Assembly (NCBI GenBank): GCA_039028155.1
Contig: JBCCIS010000024.1
Coordinates: forward strand, 1 to 64,000
Direction of reading: 5' to 3'
Length of the DNA: 64,000 nt
Source of the DNA: Pseudomonadota bacterium
GTDB lineage: Bacteria; Pseudomonadota; Alphaproteobacteria; SP197
Within the stretch, counting starts at the first letter, position 1. Every line of letters starts with the position of its first letter. The translations under genes and the position numbers were made by a program. A model generated the notes under the pieces. That model saw only the letters and a program-made list of their open reading frames with translations, was not told where the DNA came from and did not search any database. Shown here piece after piece: positions 1,475 through 44,162 of the stretch.

Positions 1475-1594
1475 CACCGGCCCGCATGGCCCTGTTTGGG
1501 AGCTTGAGAGAGCGGCGGTGCGGTCCAAACGGTTGCCCGCGCGCCTTGGCCGGTGATATGCCGACGCCGCGGAACCGGTGAACAAGGCGTCTTG

Positions 1595-2872
1595 ATGGAG
1601 ATTGTCGACGAAAACAGCTCGGCCGCGTCGCGTTACGCGGCGTCGCTGGCCGCGGTGGCGTTGGGTGCATCGGTGCCGATCCTGATCCTGGGCCGCGCGG
1701 GCATGGCCGTGGCGATCGCCATTGCCATCATTGGCCTGGTGGTCACAAGCGACCGTTCGCGCCTGGTCTACGACGTTACGGCAGCGATCAAGACGCCGCT
1801 GGGCACGGCCGTCGCCGTCACCTTCGCATTGTGGCTGGTCAGCGTCATCGGCTCGCCGGAGGTGGCGCTGTCGGCCAAGATCTGGGCGCGCATGATCGCG
1901 CTTCTGGTCGCGGCCGTGGCGCTGGTCAGTCTGCTGCGCCGCGCGCCGCACTTGCATGACCTCGCGCTCAAGGCGCTGATCGTGACGGCGCTGGCCGGTG
2001 CTGCGGTGGGTTTGGTTACGGTGCTGATGTGGCCGGATCCGCTGCTCTCGCTGCGCGGTCACGGCGCCAACCTTGATCAAGCGAACCTCGCGGTGTCCGT
2101 GTTGAAGTCCTATGGCACGGCGATCGCGTGCGCGATGCCGGTCGTCTTGTGGGCTGGCTGGCGCATGGATGCGCGTTGGCGCGCACCGGCGGTCATCTTT
2201 CAGTTTCTGGCCTTGGCGCTGCTCATCGTGCTCGAGAGCCGCGCCGGACTGGTTGCCGCGGCCGTCGGCGGCGGCATCTTCGCCTGCTGGTTTGTCTGGC
2301 GCATCGGCCGTGCCTGGTTGATCGGCGCGGTTGCCCTGATCATGGCGGCCGGCATTGCCATTGCGTTTGCGACCAACGAGCGGAACAACCAGATCGAGGC
2401 CGCGCTCGACCTGCCGATCTGGTTGGTCGACGCGCACCGCCAGACGATCTGGGATGCTTCTCTGCAGCGCTTTACCGAAGCGCCGATCTTCGGCTGGGGC
2501 ATCGACGTGATCGACAAACTTCCGGGCGCCAACGACATCGTGCCTGGATCCGGTGTCGAGTTCATTCCCTCGCACCCCCATAACTGGGCGATCGAGGTGC
2601 TGGCTGAAACGGGCGTCGTCGGTTTCGCGGCAATGTCTGTTGCGCTGATCGTTCTGGCTGTCGGTGGCATCCGCGCCACACGGCGCGATGGTGCACCGGG
2701 CGCCACGCTTCTGGCGGTGTGCGCCATCTTCTTTCTTGTCTCGCTGATCAGCTATTCGTTCTGGGCGTTCTGGTGGCAGGCGACATTCGTCCTGATGGCA
2801 AGCCTGGCGATCGCGCCGCTGACACCGGGTTTGGTGAGTTCCAGCCGGTCGCCTAAGGTGACGGCGACATGA
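1595..2872 (+). CDS. O-antigen ligase/polymerase family (Wzy_C) membrane protein
   Basis: A polytopic inner-membrane protein (425 residues, about ten to twelve hydrophobic segments) of the WaaL/Wzy superfamily, which joins or polymerises undecaprenyl-linked glycans on the periplasmic side. The diagnostic Wzy_C loop is seen around residues 300-335: a large periplasmic loop with SHPHNWAIEVLAETG, whose His is the family's key residue, followed by the terminal helices. The ATG at 1595 is preferred because an upstream in-frame extension to 1553 is arginine-rich and unlike the family. The stop overlaps the next start by 4 bp, so it is cotranscribed with the sugar-phosphate isomerase. Ligase and polymerase cannot be told apart from sequence. 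Confidence 0.88.
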   Translation: MEIVDENSSAASRYAASLAAVALGASVPILILGRAGMAVAIAIAIIGLVVTSDRSRLVYDVTAAIKTPLGTAVAVTFALWLVSVIGSPEVALSAKIWARMIALLVAAVALVSLLRRAPHLHDLALKALIVTALAGAAVGLVTVLMWPDPLLSLRGHGANLDQANLAVSVLKSYGTAIACAMPVVLWAGWRMDARWRAPAVIFQFLALALLIVLESRAGLVAAAVGGGIFACWFVWRIGRAWLIGAVALIMAAGIAIAFATNERNNQIEAALDLPIWLVDAHRQTIWDASLQRFTEAPIFGWGIDVIDKLPGANDIVPGSGVEFIPSHPHNWAIEVLAETGVVGFAAMSVALIVLAVGGIRATRRDGAPGATLLAVCAIFFLVSLISYSFWAFWWQATFVLMASLAIAPLTPGLVSSSRSPKVTAT

Positions 2873-3897
2873 CGGCAAAACTGGGACATCCGTTGGAGGC
2901 TGGCCGCGAGGTCTTGCGCGAGGCCGCGGCCTGCCTTGGCCGCGCGGCCGATGGGCTGGGCGACGACTTCGTTCAGGCAGCCCAGGCTTTGTCGCGCGAC
3001 GACAGTTTCACCGTCGTTATCGGCGTCGGTAAGTCGGGCCATATCGGCAACAAGCTGGCGGCCGGGTTGACCGGTGTCGGCCACCGCGCCGTCTTCGTGC
3101 ATCCCCAGGAAGCGCTGCATGGCGATCTCGGCATGGCCAGCCACGCGACGCTTGCCATCCTGCTCAGTCACTCCGGCACGACGGAGGAGTTGATGGTCCT
3201 GGCACCGGCGCTGAAGGAGTTCGGTTGCCAGATCGCACTGATTACGGCGGTCAAGGAGTGTCCGCTTGCCGGTTATAGCGACTGGGTCATTGAAACGCTG
3301 GTCGACGAGGAAGCCGGCCTGCATCGTCTAGCCCCGACATCGTCATCGACGACGACACTCTCAATCGGCGACGCCTTGATGATCGCCAGCTTGAACCTGC
3401 GCGGCTTCACCGCCGATGAGTTCCGCCGCTATCACCCCGGCGGCCTGCTGGGGAAGAAACTCAAGAAGGTGCGCGACCTGATGACGCCGATTGAGCGGCT
3501 GGCGTGGTTGGGTCCGGATGACTCCATCTTTGACGTGCTGGAGAAGGTCGCGTTGGGCCGGCGTGGTTTCGGCGTCGTCAGCAACAAGTCACGCGACGAA
3601 GCCGTGCGCGCGGACGAGGTCGGCGTCATTTCCGACGGCGACATCCGCAACGCGGCGCGCGACCGCGACGGTTTTCACAACAAGACCGCCGCGGCCATCA
3701 TGACGTCCAAGCCGACGGCCATCGACGCCGATGCCCTGATGGGCGACGCGTTGCGGCTGATGGAGACCTATCGCTATACGTTCCTTTTGTGCTCCGACAG
3801 CGACGGCACCCTGGTCGGGGCGGTGCAGATCCACGACTTGGTCGCCAGCGATCTGGACGTGACCGCACGGGCAGACCGATTGCCCAACGGCGATTGA
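2869..3897 (+). CDS. kdsD: KpsF/GutQ-family arabinose-5-phosphate isomerase
   Basis: Interconverts ribulose 5-phosphate and arabinose 5-phosphate, the first step to Kdo. At 342 residues it has the usual layout: a SIS domain (about 45-180) with GVGKSGHIGNKLA, the LLSHSGTTEELM phosphate-binding loop and HPGGLLGKKL, then two CBS repeats (about 208-330, beginning DLMTPIERLAWLG and AIMTSKPTAIDAD). Its place inside a surface-polysaccharide locus suggests the KpsF (capsule) role, though it may be the only copy in the genome and so serve LPS too. It overlaps the ligase gene by ATGA and is followed after 3 bases by the NusG paralogue. Confidence 0.92.
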   Translation: MTAKLGHPLEAGREVLREAAACLGRAADGLGDDFVQAAQALSRDDSFTVVIGVGKSGHIGNKLAAGLTGVGHRAVFVHPQEALHGDLGMASHATLAILLSHSGTTEELMVLAPALKEFGCQIALITAVKECPLAGYSDWVIETLVDEEAGLHRLAPTSSSTTTLSIGDALMIASLNLRGFTADEFRRYHPGGLLGKKLKKVRDLMTPIERLAWLGPDDSIFDVLEKVALGRRGFGVVSNKSRDEAVRADEVGVISDGDIRNAARDRDGFHNKTAAAIMTSKPTAIDADALMGDALRLMETYRYTFLLCSDSDGTLVGAVQIHDLVASDLDVTARADRLPNGD

Positions 3898-3900
3898 GCC

Positions 3901-4401
3901 ATGAAACGCTGGTACGTCGCCCATACCAAAGCACAGAGCGAGCGCCGGGCGCTCGACCATCTGACCAATCAAGGGTTCGAAGCGTGGCTGCCGGAGTTCA
4001 ACAAGCGGCGCCGTCACGCACGCCGCACCGACTGGGTGCGCCGCCCGCTGTTCCCGCGCTATCTGTTCGTCCACTTGGATCTGGATGCCGAGCGGTGGCG
4101 CAGCGTGCTCGGCACCGTCGGCATCCAAGCGTTGGTCGGTGGCGCCGAAAAGCCGACGCCGATGGCCGATGCGGTCGTCGAGGCAATCCGCGCCCGGGTT
4201 GATCAGGAAGGGCTGGTGCGTATCAATCCGGCCGAGACGCTGGAGGCCGGCGATGCCGTCAGGATCGCCGACGGACCGTTCGCCGATCTCGAAGGGATCT
4301 TCCTGGACATGGGCGATAACGAGCGGGTCGCGATCATGCTCAGCCTGCTCGGGCGCGAGGTCAAAGTCACCGTCAGCGCGGACCAATTGGAGCGCGCCTG
4401 A
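3901..4401 (+). CDS. NusG-family transcription antiterminator of RfaH/LoaP type
   Basis: A specialised NusG paralogue of 166 residues expected to bind RNA polymerase and keep it processive on long polysaccharide operons. The NGN domain (about 1-100) starts KRWYVAHTKAQSERRALDHL and contains the RfaH-style stretch RRPLFPRYLFVHLDLD; the C-terminal KOW domain (about 112-160) has GDAVRIADGPFADLEGIF. Length is close to E. coli RfaH (162) rather than general NusG (about 180), and it lies away from secE/rplK and inside a glycan locus. It follows the isomerase by 3 bases. Family membership is clear; specificity for the 37-kb operon downstream is inferred from location and from an ops-like site before pseB. 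Confidence 0.9.
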   Translation: MKRWYVAHTKAQSERRALDHLTNQGFEAWLPEFNKRRRHARRTDWVRRPLFPRYLFVHLDLDAERWRSVLGTVGIQALVGGAEKPTPMADAVVEAIRARVDQEGLVRINPAETLEAGDAVRIADGPFADLEGIFLDMGDNERVAIMLSLLGREVKVTVSADQLERA

Positions 4402-4445: not shown

Positions 4446-4485
4446 TCGACTTGACATCAGTGTTCGATTTATGAACAAGGTGGTG
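4446..4485 (+). promoter_or_regulatory. promoter/operator block upstream of the winged-helix regulator
   Basis: TTGACA (4451-4456) is followed after five bases by the dyad GTTCG-attta-TGAAC (4462-4476). With a 17-base spacer the -10 position is AACAAG (4474-4479), a weak box overlapping the dyad. The same arrangement with the same spacings recurs upstream of pseB at 7580-7608, and 25 of 40 positions are identical when the blocks are aligned. This suggests one DNA-binding protein acts on both, most simply autoregulation by the adjacent gene product. Confidence 0.6.
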
Positions 4486-4540: not shown

Positions 4541-5179
4541 GTGACAACCCGGCGCGAAGCAAGCGAAGACGAGGCAATCCGCCAGATTCTGGATCGTATC
4601 GACGGTGACCAGAACGTGTCGCAGCGCGACCTGGCCGATGAGCTGGGCGTCGCGCTGGGCATGGTCAACGCTTACATCAAGCGCTGCGTCCACAAGGGGC
4701 TCGTCAAGATCCAGCAGGTGCCGCGCCGGCGCTATCGTTACTACCTGACGCCTCAGGGTTTCGCCGAAAAGAGCCGGCTGACCGCACAGTACCTGTCGGA
4801 TTCGTTCGGCGCGCTGCGCCGCGGTTTGAGCAGCTTCGACCGTCTTTATGGCGATCTGGCCGAAGCCGGGCATTGCCGCGTCATCCTGTGCGGCGACGAC
4901 GAACTGGTCGAGGTCGGTATCCTCTCCAGCCTTTCGACGCCGGTCGAGATTGTCGGCGTTTTCAATCCGCTTGGGACCAGTCACACCGTGCGTGGCGTCC
5001 CGGCGATTGACCCGTCCGATCCGCCGGAGGCAGACCGTTGGGTCCTGGCCGTCGCCAAGAACGGCGAGGAGGCTTTCGCCAAGCTTGAGGAAATCGTCCC
5101 GGCCGATCGGATCATCATGCCGGACGTCCTGCACCTCTATATGTTGCGCAGCTCGTCAGCCGACCGTGGCGCCGCCTGA
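4541..5179 (+). CDS. MarR-type winged-helix regulator, exopolysaccharide-associated
   Basis: A predicted DNA-binding regulator of 212 residues. The N-terminal winged helix (about 10-80) has a clear helix-turn-helix (SQRDLADELGVALGMVNAYI) and wing (QQVPRRRYRYYLTPQGF). The C-terminal half (about 115-200) reads like a small Rossmann-type domain (CRVILCGDDELVEVGI, then VEIVGVFNPLG and VRGVPAI), similar in style to the nucleotide/CoA-binding part of PglD-like proteins, and may sense a metabolite. The GTG at 4541 gives a natural N-terminus (MTTRREASEDEA); an ATG at 4499 would add 14 residues. Position between an RfaH paralogue and the glycan operon, and the shared promoter dyads, point to control of that operon. 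Confidence 0.8.
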   Translation: MTTRREASEDEAIRQILDRIDGDQNVSQRDLADELGVALGMVNAYIKRCVHKGLVKIQQVPRRRYRYYLTPQGFAEKSRLTAQYLSDSFGALRRGLSSFDRLYGDLAEAGHCRVILCGDDELVEVGILSSLSTPVEIVGVFNPLGTSHTVRGVPAIDPSDPPEADRWVLAVAKNGEEAFAKLEEIVPADRIIMPDVLHLYMLRSSSADRGAA

Positions 5180-7564: not shown

Positions 7565-7608
7565 GTTCAAGAAATGAACTTGACGGCGGCGTTCATTAAC
7601 TGAACATT
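7565..7608 (+). promoter_or_regulatory. promoter with two GTTCA-N5-TGAAC operators, start of the glycan operon
   Basis: Two perfect dyads, GTTCA-agaaa-TGAAC (7565-7579) and GTTCA-ttaac-TGAAC (7591-7605), are 26 bp apart start to start. Between them, TTGACG (7580-7585) is a good -35 box; a 17-base spacer puts the -10 at AACATT (7603-7608), inside the second dyad's edge. The layout copies that upstream of the winged-helix regulator gene (4451-4479). A protein bound to the downstream dyad would sit between the two promoter boxes and block polymerase, so repression is the simplest reading. Confidence 0.65.
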
Positions 7609-7653
7609 GTGGCCAGGCTGGTGGCGCCAAGCGGCAAAAAATGCTGTGCACCC

Positions 7654-7671
7654 GGCCTGCGGTAGCATGCC
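7654..7671 (+). promoter_or_regulatory. ops-like element in the operon leader (candidate RfaH-type recruitment site)
   Basis: The 12-mer TGCGGTAGCATG (7658-7669) differs from the E. coli ops element GGCGGTAGNNTG only at its first base. It can fold as the ops hairpin does: TGC-GGTA-GCA, extended by GGC (7654-7656) and GCC (7669-7671) across one mismatch. It lies about 50 bases after the predicted start of transcription and 39 before pseB, where a pausing RNA polymerase would load an RfaH-type factor. The gene for such a factor is at 3901-4401. Confidence 0.5.
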
Positions 7672-7707: not shown

Positions 7708-8736
7708 ATGACCTCTCGACGTTTCGATACGCCGACGCCGGATCTGAACGGCGCCTCCATCCTGGTCACCGGCGGGACCGGCTCCTTTGGTCGCGCGTTC
7801 GTCAAGACGGTGCTTGAGCGCTATGAGCCCGCGCGGTTGGCGGTGCTGTCGCGCGACGAACTCAAGCAGTTCGAGATGCAGCAGGATCCCGCCATCAGCC
7901 AGAAGACCTGCATGCGATTCTTCATCGGCGATGTGCGCGACGTCGGTCGCCTTGAAAGCGCGATGCGGGATGTGGATATCGTGATCCACGCGGCCGCGCT
8001 GAAGCAGATCACGACCGCCGAGTACAATCCGTTCGAGTGCGTGCACACGAACGTCATGGGCGCGGAGAACATTGTCCAGGCTGCCATCCGCATGGGAGTC
8101 AAAAAGGTCGTCGCGCTTTCCACCGACAAGGCGGCCAACCCGATCAATCTCTATGGCGCCAGCAAGCTCGCGTCCGACAAGATCTTTGTTGCAGGGAACA
8201 ACATGGCGGGGTCGGTCGGTACACGGTTTGCCGTGGTGCGCTATGGCAATGTTCTGGGATCGCGCGGCAGCGTCGTGCCTGTGTTCCGCAATCTTCTTGC
8301 CGATGGCGCGACGGAACTGCCGGTAACGGACGCGCGCATGACGCGGTTCTGGATCACCCTGCAGCAAGGCGTCGACTTCGTTCTTTCCTCGCTCGCCATG
8401 ATGACCGGCGGTGAGATTTTCGTGCCCAAGATCCCGTCGACGACCCTGATCGATCTGGCCCGCGCGCTGGCGCCAGATGCCGCCCACAAGGTGATCGGCA
8501 TTCGCCCCGGCGAGAAGCTGCACGAAATCATGATCACCGAAGATGACTCACGCTCCACCGTCGAACTGGACGATCGTTATGTCATCGAGCCGGTGTTCAG
8601 CTGGTGGGATACCGATCCCTATCTGGATAACGGCGCTTCCCGTGTCGAGGACGGCTTCGTGTACGCCAGCAACCGCAACGGTGAAACGCTGGACGCAGAA
8701 GGTCTGATCGGCCTCCTGAACGAAGCGGGCGTATGA
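7708..8736 (+). CDS. pseB: UDP-GlcNAc 4,6-dehydratase (inverting)
   Basis: First step of pseudaminic-acid synthesis: dehydrates and C5-epimerises UDP-GlcNAc. At 342 residues it is a soluble extended SDR, lacking the membrane domain of the CapD form. Seen are the NAD-binding GGTGSFG (near residue 22), HAAALKQITTAEYNPFEC, the signature TDKAANPINLYGASKLASDK with catalytic Tyr and Lys, and RYGNVLGSRGSVVP. The ATG at 7708 has no clear Shine-Dalgarno; it follows a roughly 95-base leader with an ops-like hairpin. It is the first gene of the long operon and overlaps pseC by ATGA. Confidence 0.95.
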   Translation: MTSRRFDTPTPDLNGASILVTGGTGSFGRAFVKTVLERYEPARLAVLSRDELKQFEMQQDPAISQKTCMRFFIGDVRDVGRLESAMRDVDIVIHAAALKQITTAEYNPFECVHTNVMGAENIVQAAIRMGVKKVVALSTDKAANPINLYGASKLASDKIFVAGNNMAGSVGTRFAVVRYGNVLGSRGSVVPVFRNLLADGATELPVTDARMTRFWITLQQGVDFVLSSLAMMTGGEIFVPKIPSTTLIDLARALAPDAAHKVIGIRPGEKLHEIMITEDDSRSTVELDDRYVIEPVFSWWDTDPYLDNGASRVEDGFVYASNRNGETLDAEGLIGLLNEAGV

Positions 8737-33878: not shown

Positions 33879-35771
33879 ATGTGCGGTATCGCCGGCCTAA
33901 TCGACTGGCAGACCCATTTGGGGCCTGACGCGGCGCGGCGCGCGGTCGAGGCGATGACGGCGCGCCTGGTTCATCGCGGACCCGACGCCGACGGCCTGTG
34001 GCATGAGGCCGACGGCATCGCGACGCTCGGCCATCGCCGGCTGTCGATCATCGACCTTAGCGAGACGGGCGCGCAGCCCATGGTGTCCGGCGATGGCGAC
34101 CTCGTCATCACCTACAACGGCGAGCTCTATAACTACCGCGACATCGCGGACGACCTGCGGGCCGAGGGTGTGGTGCTGCGCGGCGCATCCGATACGGAGG
34201 TCCTGCTGGAGGCCGTCTCGTCATGGGGTCTTGAGGCGGCCTTGGAGCGGTCGGTGGGCATGTTTGCCTTTGCGCTGTGGTCGCGCTCGCGGCGCGAGCT
34301 GGTCCTGGTGCGCGACCGGCTTGGCAAGAAGCCGCTCTACTGGTCATCCCATGGCGGCCGGCTTGCGTTTGCGTCGGAGCTGACGGCACTGCTCACCCTC
34401 GACACCATGCCGCGCGACATCGACCGCGATGCGCTGGCGCTTTACATGCGCCACGCCTGCGTGCCGGCGCCGCGGACCATCCTTTCCGGCATCAACAAGC
34501 TGATGCCCGGCCACACCATGACCTTCCGCGATGGCGAACAGAAGAGTGACTGTTACTGGGATCTGCGCGACATCGCCCGGCAGGGCGCGCACCAGCCGCT
34601 TGACGTCACGCCGGACGAGGCAGTCAAGACGCTCGACGGTCTGGTCGGTGACGCCGTCGCCAAACGCATGATCGCCGACGTACCGCTTGGCGCGTTTCTG
34701 TCGGGGGGAATCGATTCCTCGCTGATGGTCGCCACCATGCAGGCGAGAAGCAGCGCGCCGATCAAGACGTTCACCATCGCCTTCGACGAAGAGGGTTGGG
34801 ACGAGGGTGGCTACGCGCGCGATGTTGCCGAGCGCCTCGGCACCGATCACCAGGAGCTGCGCCTGGCGCCGGATACCGGCCTTGCCATGGTCGATGACAT
34901 CGCCGCGTTCTACGACGAACCGTTTGCCGACGCGTCCCAACTGGCGACCTGGCTGGTCAGTCGCCTGGCGCGCGAGGACGTGATCGTCGCGCTGTCCGGT
35001 GATGGTGGCGATGAGCTGTTCGCCGGCTACTCGCGCTATGGCTGGGCGACGGCGGCCCATCGCCGTTTCCAGCGGGTACCGCAGGGCGCGCGCCGCGCCG
35101 CTGCGGCGCTGCTGGCCGATGCGCCGCTGCCCGGCAGTTGGGGCGATCGGCTGCGCCATCACGCCGGCATGGCGGATGCCGGCGACACCGACGAGCTTTA
35201 CCGCCGCCTCGTCAGCGCTTGGCGCGAACCCTGTGGTGTCGTTGCCGATGCCAAGGAGCCGCAGGGTATGTTATGGGACCGCAGTTTGATGGGCGACGTT
35301 CCCGATCCAATCGCCCGCATGCAGCTGCTGGACGCCATGACCTTCCTGCCCGACGACATCCTGACAAAACTCGACCGCGCCTCGATGGCGGTCAGCCTGG
35401 AGGCGCGCACCCCGCTGCTCGACCATCGGATCGCCGAGTTCGCCTTTGCGCTGCCGCGTCACGTGATGCGGCTCGACGGCGAGGGCAAGTGGCCGTTGCG
35501 CCAGCTGCTCTATCGCCATCTGCCCAAGGACTTGTTCGACCGGCCCAAGCGCGGGTTCTCCGTGCCGGTTGGCGCCTGGTTGCGCGGACCGCTGAAAGCA
35601 TGGGCCGAACGACTGATCGATCGGCGCCGTCTCGACGAGGCCGGCCTGCTCAACGCAGGTGCGATCGAGGGCGCCTGGCGTCGGCACCAGGCTGGGCGCA
35701 GCGGCTGGGCGAACGCGCTTTGGGCGGTGCTGATGTTTGAAGCGTGGCGTGACAGCCACGGGTTCGCGTGA
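33879..35771 (+). CDS. asnB: AsnB-like glutamine amidotransferase/asparagine synthase, first copy
   Basis: A 630-residue glutamine-dependent amide-forming enzyme. The N-terminal Ntn glutaminase domain starts MCGIAGLIDWQ with catalytic Cys2 and contains HRGPDADGLW and YNGELYNYRDIADDL; the synthase domain has the ATP loop FLSGGIDSSLMVATM (about 273) and ALSGDGGDELFAGYSRYG, then TFLPDDILTKLDRASMAVSL. In polysaccharide loci such enzymes often convert a sugar carboxylate to an amide rather than make asparagine. A paralogue lies at 42279. It starts 3 bases after the glycosyltransferase stop. Confidence 0.9.
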   Translation: MCGIAGLIDWQTHLGPDAARRAVEAMTARLVHRGPDADGLWHEADGIATLGHRRLSIIDLSETGAQPMVSGDGDLVITYNGELYNYRDIADDLRAEGVVLRGASDTEVLLEAVSSWGLEAALERSVGMFAFALWSRSRRELVLVRDRLGKKPLYWSSHGGRLAFASELTALLTLDTMPRDIDRDALALYMRHACVPAPRTILSGINKLMPGHTMTFRDGEQKSDCYWDLRDIARQGAHQPLDVTPDEAVKTLDGLVGDAVAKRMIADVPLGAFLSGGIDSSLMVATMQARSSAPIKTFTIAFDEEGWDEGGYARDVAERLGTDHQELRLAPDTGLAMVDDIAAFYDEPFADASQLATWLVSRLAREDVIVALSGDGGDELFAGYSRYGWATAAHRRFQRVPQGARRAAAALLADAPLPGSWGDRLRHHAGMADAGDTDELYRRLVSAWREPCGVVADAKEPQGMLWDRSLMGDVPDPIARMQLLDAMTFLPDDILTKLDRASMAVSLEARTPLLDHRIAEFAFALPRHVMRLDGEGKWPLRQLLYRHLPKDLFDRPKRGFSVPVGAWLRGPLKAWAERLIDRRRLDEAGLLNAGAIEGAWRRHQAGRSGWANALWAVLMFEAWRDSHGFA

Positions 35772-42278: not shown

Positions 42279-44162
42279 ATGTGCGGCATTGCCGGCCAAA
42301 TCAATCTTGGTGGTCTCGACCGCGGGACAATCGCGCCCCGGCTCGACCTGGCGGTGGCGCGCCTGAAGGCGCGCGGCCCCGACGCCAACGGCACGTGGTT
42401 CGACCGTTGCGCCGCGCTCGGCCATACCCGCCTCGCCATCATCGATCTCAGCGAGGCCGGCGCCCAGCCGATGACCGAGGACGGTCTCGCGCTGGTCTAT
42501 AACGGCGAGATCTATAATCACGCCGAACTCCGGCAGGAACTCGAAACGCTCGGCCACCGGTTTCGTGGCCAGTCTGATACAGAGGTGCTGTTGAAGGCGT
42601 GGCGCCAGTGGGGCGCTGCCGTGCTGCCGCGGTTGAACGGCATGTTCGCGTTCGCGCTATGGGACGGCAGCGAGCTCGTCCTGGCCCGCGACCGCTTTGG
42701 CAAGAAGCCGCTACTCTATGCCGGTGATGGCCGGCGTCTGACGTTCGCTTCCGATCTCGTCGCGCTCGAAAGCCTCGAGGCGACGCAACGCCCTGTCGAT
42801 CCAGCCGCCTTGCGGCTCTTCTTCGCGCTGCGCTATCTGCCGGAACCCTGGTCGATCGCCCAGGGCGTGCGTCATCTGGCACCCGGTCACCTCGCACGGT
42901 TTTCGCAAGACGGCCTCAGGGTCGAAAGCTGGGTCACGCCGCCCCCGGCTGGCCCTTACGCCGACGAAACGGAGGCCGCACGGGACCTCGCCGACCGTTT
43001 CGATGCCGCCGTTGCCGCGCGTTTGGTCGCCGACGTACCTGTTGGTGCCTATCTCTCCGGCGGCGTCGACTCCGGTCTCGTCACGGCTGCCATGGTGCGT
43101 CACGCGCGCGATGTCAGAAGCTTCACGGTAGGCTTCGCCGGCGTTCCCAGCTATTACGAGGAACGTCCGGCCGCGCGACGTGTCGCCGATCATCTGGGTC
43201 TTGATCATACGGAGATCGAGGTCAGCCCGGACGATGCGCTTGCCGCGATCGAACCGATGTTCGACGGCCTGGACGAGCCGTTCGCCGATTCCTCCGCGCT
43301 GCCGTCCTATATCCTGGCGCGTGAAACCCGCCGGCACGTGACCGTCGCACTCTCCGGTGACGGCGGCGACGAGGTGTTCGGCGGCTATCGCATGTATCAG
43401 GGCGAGTTCTGGGCCGGGCGTTATGGCGCCTTGCCCGGTTGGCTGCGCGAGGGTCTGATCGAACCGGTCGTTGGCGCTCTGCCGGACGGTAAGGGATCAC
43501 GGCTGACCGATCAGGCGCGGCGCCTGAAGCGTTTTATCGACCACGGCGCCAAGCCGGCGATCGCGCGACGCGCCGGCCTTGCGCGTTTGCTCGATGAAGG
43601 CGAACTGGACGTGTTGATGGCCGTACCCAGCGAAGCGCCGACGGTCGAACAGCTATTCGCCATCGCGAGGCGCGACGCGCCGGCCGACGATCCGTTGACT
43701 GCGCTTTTGATTGGCGATCAGGTGCTGGGCCTGCCCGGCGACATGCTGGCCAAAGTCGATCGCACCTCGATGGCGGTGAGCCTCGAGGTGCGGTCGCCGT
43801 TTCTCGATCCCCATGTCGTCGCCTCGGCGAACGCCATGCCGGGTCCCTGGAAACTCAAACCTGGCCAAGGCAAGGCGATCCTCAAAAAGGCTTTCTCGGA
43901 CTGGCTGCCGGACGATGTCTTCAGCCTGCCGAAGAAGGGTTTCGAGTTGCCGATCGATCGCTGGCTGACCGGACCGCTGGACGATCTCACGCGCCGGGCC
44001 GTAGACCGAGGTCGGTTGGAGCGCCAGGGACTGATCAAGCCGGACCTGCCGGCGCGCTGGTATGACGATCTGAAGTCCGGCCGCCGCGATACCGCATGGC
44101 ACCTTTGGGCGATGATCAGCTTCGCCGCCTGGTCGGATCGGCGCGAGGCCGGCTGGTCATGA
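42279..44162 (+). CDS. asnB: AsnB-like glutamine amidotransferase/asparagine synthase, second copy
   Basis: A 627-residue paralogue of the gene at 33879, same architecture: MCGIAGQINLGG with Cys2, ARGPDANGTW, YNGEIYNHAELRQELETLGH, the ATP loop YLSGGVDSGLVTAAMV (about 257), ALSGDGGDEVFGGYRMYQ and LPGDMLAKVDRTSMAVSLEV. The two copies are clearly diverged (for example GGVDSG against GGIDSS), so they are unlikely to be a recent duplication and may amidate different carboxylated sugars. It overlaps the last operon gene by ATGA. Confidence 0.9.
   Translation: MCGIAGQINLGGLDRGTIAPRLDLAVARLKARGPDANGTWFDRCAALGHTRLAIIDLSEAGAQPMTEDGLALVYNGEIYNHAELRQELETLGHRFRGQSDTEVLLKAWRQWGAAVLPRLNGMFAFALWDGSELVLARDRFGKKPLLYAGDGRRLTFASDLVALESLEATQRPVDPAALRLFFALRYLPEPWSIAQGVRHLAPGHLARFSQDGLRVESWVTPPPAGPYADETEAARDLADRFDAAVAARLVADVPVGAYLSGGVDSGLVTAAMVRHARDVRSFTVGFAGVPSYYEERPAARRVADHLGLDHTEIEVSPDDALAAIEPMFDGLDEPFADSSALPSYILARETRRHVTVALSGDGGDEVFGGYRMYQGEFWAGRYGALPGWLREGLIEPVVGALPDGKGSRLTDQARRLKRFIDHGAKPAIARRAGLARLLDEGELDVLMAVPSEAPTVEQLFAIARRDAPADDPLTALLIGDQVLGLPGDMLAKVDRTSMAVSLEVRSPFLDPHVVASANAMPGPWKLKPGQGKAILKKAFSDWLPDDVFSLPKKGFELPIDRWLTGPLDDLTRRAVDRGRLERQGLIKPDLPARWYDDLKSGRRDTAWHLWAMISFAAWSDRREAGWS

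Follow-up and report, generated by a model that had tools for sequence, protein, structure and literature searches.

Closest Described Systems

According to Wang et al. (2020, PMC7593976), E. coli RfaH is the only RfaH-type protein whose recruitment is understood in detail; the authors also place an HTH regulator next to the members of RfaH cluster CL4, with no operator described in the text consulted. A NusG paralogue and a second small regulator also occur together at polysaccharide operons in the UpxY/UpxZ system of Bacteroides (PMC7593976). Among regulators, TIGR04176 (MarR_EPS) is the NCBIfam entry for the "MarR family EPS-associated transcriptional regulator", and Rex repressors combine a winged helix with a Rossmann domain.

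The locus analysed here, contained in a window (the whole stretch of DNA that was analysed) of 64,000 nucleotides, resembles each of these systems in part. As in E. coli, a long envelope-glycan operon has an exact ops core, GCGGTAGCnTGC, in its leader, and an RfaH-type paralogue is present; in contrast to E. coli, the window has the gene for a paired, putatively operator-binding repressor adjoining the RfaH gene, and a conserved CACCYG extension upstream of the ops core. UpxZ interferes with the expression of other upx operons, whereas the partner in the window is predicted to bind promoter DNA. The window regulator shares with MarR_EPS proteins a homologous winged helix, a glycan-cluster context, and a GTTCA-N5-TGAAC dyad upstream of its gene, but it falls below the family cut-off, has twice the length, and contains a Rossmann-like domain.

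The sequence-only reading of this DNA had held that no operator was described for an EPS-associated MarR protein, and we found no description of an operator or ligand of the TIGR04176 family, of the motif, or of an RfaH-MarR pairing in the literature searched, which left out most subscription journals. Repressor-operator pairs and RfaH/ops are each known; a family-wide operator and the joint use of the two appear undescribed. The reading that we favour, with a probability of roughly 0.85 and in the absence of binding, transcript, or ligand data, is that the 212-residue regulator has the dyad as its operator and represses its own promoter and that of the pse operon, with RfaH and ops as a second step.

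Inferred Promoters and Dyads in the Window

The following features make up the two inferred promoters (the dyads have no strand):

4451–4456, plus strand: -35-like TTGACA of the regulator promoter (from the sequence; same offset in nine family members)
4462–4476: predicted operator dyad of the regulator promoter, GTTCGATTTATGAAC, i.e., arms GTTCG and TGAAC around ATTTA (from the sequence and relatives)
7565–7579: the more upstream of two predicted operator dyads at the pse promoter, GTTCAAGAAATGAAC, i.e., arms GTTCA and TGAAC around AGAAA (from the sequence and relatives)
7580–7585, plus strand: -35-like TTGACG, directly between both pse dyads (from the sequence; same place in seven relatives, kept in the regulator-less relative G007)
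7591–7605: the more downstream of the two predicted operator dyads at the pse promoter, GTTCATTAACTGAAC, i.e., arms GTTCA and TGAAC around TTAAC (from the sequence and relatives)

The three dyads and the two similar 40-bp blocks had been described before any comparison with relatives, and the description was accurate: the dyads lie where they had been placed, 25 of 40 positions are identical between the regulator and pse blocks, and the TTGAC[A/G]-N5-dyad spacing is common to both promoters. The dyad had also been said to lie exactly between -35 and -10. This does not hold entirely: if a 17-bp spacer is assumed, the right arm of the dyad extends into the start of the expected -10, namely AACAAG (4474–4479) and AACATT (7603–7608), both poor matches to a -10. 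Both promoters are inferred, and their -10 boxes are weak.

The window alone contains 17 matches to the dyad pattern (with at most one mismatch) versus 6.7 expected, a modest excess, and GTTCR-N5-YGAAC occurs 14 times in the complete 5.3-Mb assembly versus 13 for the reversed control, i.e., near background. The bare 15-mer has no significance on its own genome-wide, and statistics from a single genome or from the window were set aside as uninformative proof of the dyad. Since the signal of the window and of the genome is only modest or at background, relatives were needed to settle the question.

Conservation of the Dyad Upstream of Regulator Orthologues

In a first set of 61 genomes, 19 contained a regulator match, and the dyad was found upstream of 16 of these 19, down to 34–36% identity; the three matches without it include two weak, partial ones. 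A search for the GTTC/GAAC dyad upstream of orthologous loci, which had been proposed as a check, gave the expected outcome in the best 80 loci of the genome-contig collection: GTTC-N7-GAAC lies within 300 bp upstream of the regulator in 75 of 80, versus 0 of 80 for the reversed control. In the other five (L058, L061, L069, L078, and L097) the dyad is 588–768 bp upstream, where it stands before the adjacent upstream gene, rfaH-like each time. The first set and the best 80 loci overlap in several genomes, and the two samples are not fully independent.

Over the same loci, 129 dyads fall in the 26 kb upstream of the orthologues versus 33 in 1,222 kb elsewhere, a 181-fold enrichment. Moreover, the aligned upstream DNA of the 75 diverged loci is barely conserved outside the dyad; the strongest flanking columns are an A right after it (about 1.0 bit) and T-A-G-T just before it (0.2–0.7 bit), and nearly all the other upstream columns remain below 0.3 bit.

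Among the family members, the dyad precedes the regulator in all ten genomes holding it, which contradicts the refutation named beforehand, i.e., its absence from close relatives keeping both genes. In the 385 sampled genomes of the class, paired dyads are present in 48 of the 94 with the regulator versus 1 of the 291 without it (Fisher 1.4e-33, a value that is only indicative because the genomes are related). The sole regulator-less genome with a pair, G055, has it before a MATE-like transporter gene, probably by chance or for another regulator. From these sequence comparisons, the dyad is judged not to be a chance element.

Four regulator promoters (L065, L087, L093, and L098) have three successive dyads spaced by 21–33 bp, suggesting cooperative binding.

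The Regulator Protein and Its HTH Family

The regulator gene and its C-terminal portion are located as follows:

4541–5179, plus strand: regulator gene, 212 aa from a GTG start; a MarR/PadR-type winged helix and a long helix followed by a Rossmann-like C-terminal domain (AlphaFold2, fold matches)
4862–5152, plus strand: C-terminal domain of Rossmann/CoA-binding-like type, which may sense a ligand (AlphaFold2, pLDDT 90; fold matches)

The GTG at 4541, and not the upstream ATG, agrees with the point where conservation begins. Matches to this protein were retrieved from 94 of the 385 sampled alphaproteobacterial genomes and also from records labelled Gammaproteobacteria and Nitrospira. It scored 65 bits (E 5.5e-18) against TIGR04176, whose cut-off is 88, and is also related to PF13412 by profile match; all 59 aligned relatives match the TIGR04176 winged helix. 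The former assignment to the EPS-associated MarR proteins holds for the winged helix, which is homologous, and has to be qualified for the protein as a whole, given the score below the cut-off and the extra Rossmann-like domain.

The AlphaFold2 model built on the 59 aligned sequences (pLDDT 89) shows a winged helix and a long helix followed by a Rossmann-like domain. Residues 1–98 match PadR and MarR structures with VIA-align Z values of 12–13, and the C-terminal domain modelled alone resembles the succinyl-CoA synthetase alpha subunit (Z 9.4), WbaP (Z 8.0), and Rex (Z 7.8); the latter resemblances have modest Z values and name no ligand. When the C-terminal model was compared with PDB folds, Foldseek produced no match with an E value under 0.001, a PDB sequence search with the regulator and with its C-terminal domain retrieved nothing reliable, and for this domain Pfam offered nothing beyond weak hints of CoA_binding, PglD_N, and Gfo/Idh. 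The O-methyltransferase matches of the full model, having low TM-scores and large rmsd, were discarded and probably reflect the common combination of a winged helix and a Rossmann fold. Compared with Rex, the HTH of the window protein is MarR/PadR-like and the dinucleotide-binding motif GxGxxG is not conserved in its C-terminal domain. The predicted window operator also differs from the known Rex site.

The same GTTCA-N5-TGAAC dyad lies upstream of 11 of the 13 short, above-cut-off TIGR04176 members with readable upstream DNA. Furthermore, in seven loci of alphaproteobacterial genomes (L206–L211 and L213) the same HTH is fused in frame to a likely sulfate adenylyltransferase/APS kinase, bifunctional and of about 700 aa (the enzyme part was recognised from the sequence and not by a family search), and one or two GTTCA-N4-TGAAC dyads lie upstream of the fused genes, whose product may regulate its own gene. 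Because the short TIGR04176 proteins and the fused ones share it, the half site GTTCA is regarded as a property of the HTH domain. The link between operator and locus proposed at the outset is thus retained insofar as the dyad is that of the regulator; it is not peculiar to the locus, being a signature of the whole HTH family.

The pse Operon and Other Targets

Downstream of the second promoter lie:

7708–8736, plus strand: pseB, first gene of the glycan operon (TIGR03589, 512.8 bits versus a cut-off of 407.75)
7708–45289, plus strand: same-strand glycan operon of about 37 kb (ORF map, family matches)

This operon includes pseB, pseC, pseG, pseI, cytidylyltransferase genes, and an MsbA/PglK-like ABC exporter gene, together with others. 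It also embeds two paralogous XrtA/PEP-CTERM-type asparagine synthase-like amidotransferase genes (33879–35771 and 42279–44162).

The pair of dyads spaced by 26 bp, with TTGAC between them, was found in seven relatives from three genera (G001, G002, G003, G009, G012, G013, and G015). In all of them except G003, where an ABC-transporter gene follows, the next gene is pseB, with 64–92% identity (67% over 46 aa in G012, whose contig ends inside the gene). The claim that the dyad is common to the regulator and the pse operon is therefore borne out by the same pair before pseB in six relatives. Where the pair and the regulator are on the same contig, they are separated by about 418 kb in G003 and about 234 kb in G015, so the pse-type pair does not derive from a local duplication.

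At other distal pairs the following gene codes for a LegC-like aminotransferase, NeuD, an RmlD-like protein, or an ABC exporter. The link to polysaccharide genes expected of a TIGR04176-type protein is thus met both by the pse operon in the window and by the glycan genes at distal targets. Three further pairs, spaced by 30–35 bp and without ops, precede monovalent cation:proton antiporter-like genes (L179 at 8746, L182 at 9007, and L183 at 2912), that of L179 matching the CPA2 family; such antiporter genes are a recurrent non-glycan target of the dyad.

The RfaH Paralogue and the ops Element

Two further features belong to the same region:

3901–4401, plus strand: gene for an RfaH-type NusG paralogue of 166 aa, directly upstream of the regulator (TIGR01955, 128.3 bits)
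7649–7670, plus strand: extended ops element in the pse leader, CACCCGGCCTGCGGTAGCATGC, with its core GCGGTAGCATGC at 7659–7670

Both the adjoining RfaH/NusG paralogue and the ops element of the pse leader had gone unnoticed in the sequence-only reading. RfaH (TIGR01955) is the best NusG-type model for the 3901–4401 product, yet the score is below the cut-off of 144.5. The core in the pse leader is the exact classical ops sequence, located about 45–55 nt downstream of the second pse dyad, and the same extended ops follows most distal glycan dyads at about 30–100 nt. In three genera of the family, ops occurs together with the pair and TTGAC.

Of the best 80 loci, 70 have an rfaH-like gene at most 10 kb from the regulator; it adjoins the regulator in 57 (downstream in 36, upstream in 21) and is further away in 13. 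Of the 94 genomes with the regulator, 20 have the dyad-ops module, versus 6 of the 291 without it; the reversed control has no such bias, with 3 of 94 versus 16 of 291. The CACC extension is missing from the matches in regulator-less genomes (L234, L241, L242, L246, L251, and L252), which seem to be chance hits. Within the family, a dyad followed by ops was detected in 9 of 10 members with the regulator versus 0 of 6 without it (Fisher 9e-4). No dyad-ops module was found in the G006 assembly, which is about 90% complete and contains both the regulator and the RfaH gene, and the search did not retrieve a close RfaH orthologue from G003, where dyads and ops are present.

Upstream of rfaH and on the same strand, the genes for an O-antigen ligase-like (Wzy_C) protein and a KpsF-type sugar-phosphate isomerase (1553–3897) run into it, so that rfaH may be cotranscribed with these genes instead of being expressed from the dyad promoter. 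The regulator promoter of the window is separate from rfaH, whereas in many relatives rfaH and the regulator appear to form one dyad-controlled unit.

Inferred Repression and Alternative Explanations

Our preference for repression rests on site position, i.e., on the overlap between dyads and promoter positions. In 34 of the 80 loci, versus 1.8 expected at random positions, TTGAC either adjoins the dyad or stops about 6 bp short of it, the window promoters having the TTGAC-N6-dyad form, and in many other loci a TATAGT-like -10 stands directly before the dyad. Such positions are those of a repressor. The regulator might instead bind the same dyads and activate transcription, or switch between repression and activation, an alternative that we consider unlikely. 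Many promoters do have two or three dyads, some of them further upstream (L065, L087, and L099), and the pse pair flanks the -35; however, at most promoters the dyad occupies the -35/-10 spacer or directly follows TTGAC or a TATAGT-like -10, where a bound protein would exclude the polymerase.

The regulator-less relative G007 bears on the same point. Its near-closed genome (two contigs) has an RfaH orthologue and no regulator match; at one locus (L280, G007:C1:2658838) it keeps CACCCGGCCTGCGGTAGC and TTGAC, and the two dyads are still 26 bp apart with mutated half sites, GATCGGGAACCGAGC and CTTCATGCCATGGAC. The gene following them is not pseB within the 1.5 kb read. Operators that decayed while TTGAC and ops were kept are easier to explain, by inference, with the loss of a repressor than with that of an activator. 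As far as the sequence of one case can tell, the dyads follow the regulator and ops follows RfaH, as the model predicts.

A different factor, such as LexA, could also bind the dyads, although we regard this as very improbable. The SOS box of alphaproteobacterial LexA is the direct repeat GTTC-N7-GTTC, having the same GTTC word and the same 7-bp gap. The element conserved in the window and in relatives is instead inverted (GTTC-N7-GAAC), so that the direct-repeat test is not met and the SOS box was rejected; moreover, the dyad tracks the regulator gene across genomes, standing directly before it at wide protein divergence, and regulators sharing the HTH and differing in their C-terminal parts have the same half site.

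That the similarity of the two blocks is a coincidence or a local duplication without function, as the modest window excess and a genome-wide bare pattern equal to its control might suggest, is hardly credible in view of a conservation mainly limited to the dyad and its immediate flanks over 75 diverged loci, the recurrence of the pair in other genera, at pseB loci that are unlinked, and the co-occurrence with the regulator.

Proposed Model and Its Meaning

The operator reading, with its extension to the pse operon, which had been put forward from the window alone, is supported by the comparison with relatives; binding and transcript starts are only predicted. The sequence and the comparison supply the dyads, their tight linkage to the regulator family, their promoter-overlapping position, the shared glycan target, ops, and the RfaH neighbour, whereas it is inferred that the regulator physically binds the dyads, that it represses, and that RfaH is recruited.

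According to this model, a regulator dimer probably binds the 15-bp GTTCA-N5-TGAAC dyad. At the regulator's own promoter the bound dimer would block RNA polymerase, resulting in negative autoregulation, and at the pse promoter the two dyads flanking the -35 would allow the same block. Once initiation had occurred, the RfaH-type paralogue would load onto the polymerase at ops and keep transcription going through the 37-kb operon. A relief of repression through a cofactor or a sugar nucleotide bound by the Rossmann-like domain is speculation.

A broader scheme can be offered only tentatively, and we think it rather less probable than not: a Proteobacteria-wide "two-key" glycan cassette, in which a MarR_EPS-type repressor would sense a sugar nucleotide or a nucleotide cofactor through a Rossmann-like domain, control its own gene and, in many lineages, rfaH, and gate initiation, while RfaH at ops would gate elongation.

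If the operator reading is correct, a widespread and uncharacterised regulator family would gain a precise DNA site and, in turn, a predictable regulon; RfaH paralogues outside the enterics would be supplied with natural ops sites; and a repressor of initiation and an elongation factor would be paired at the same operons.
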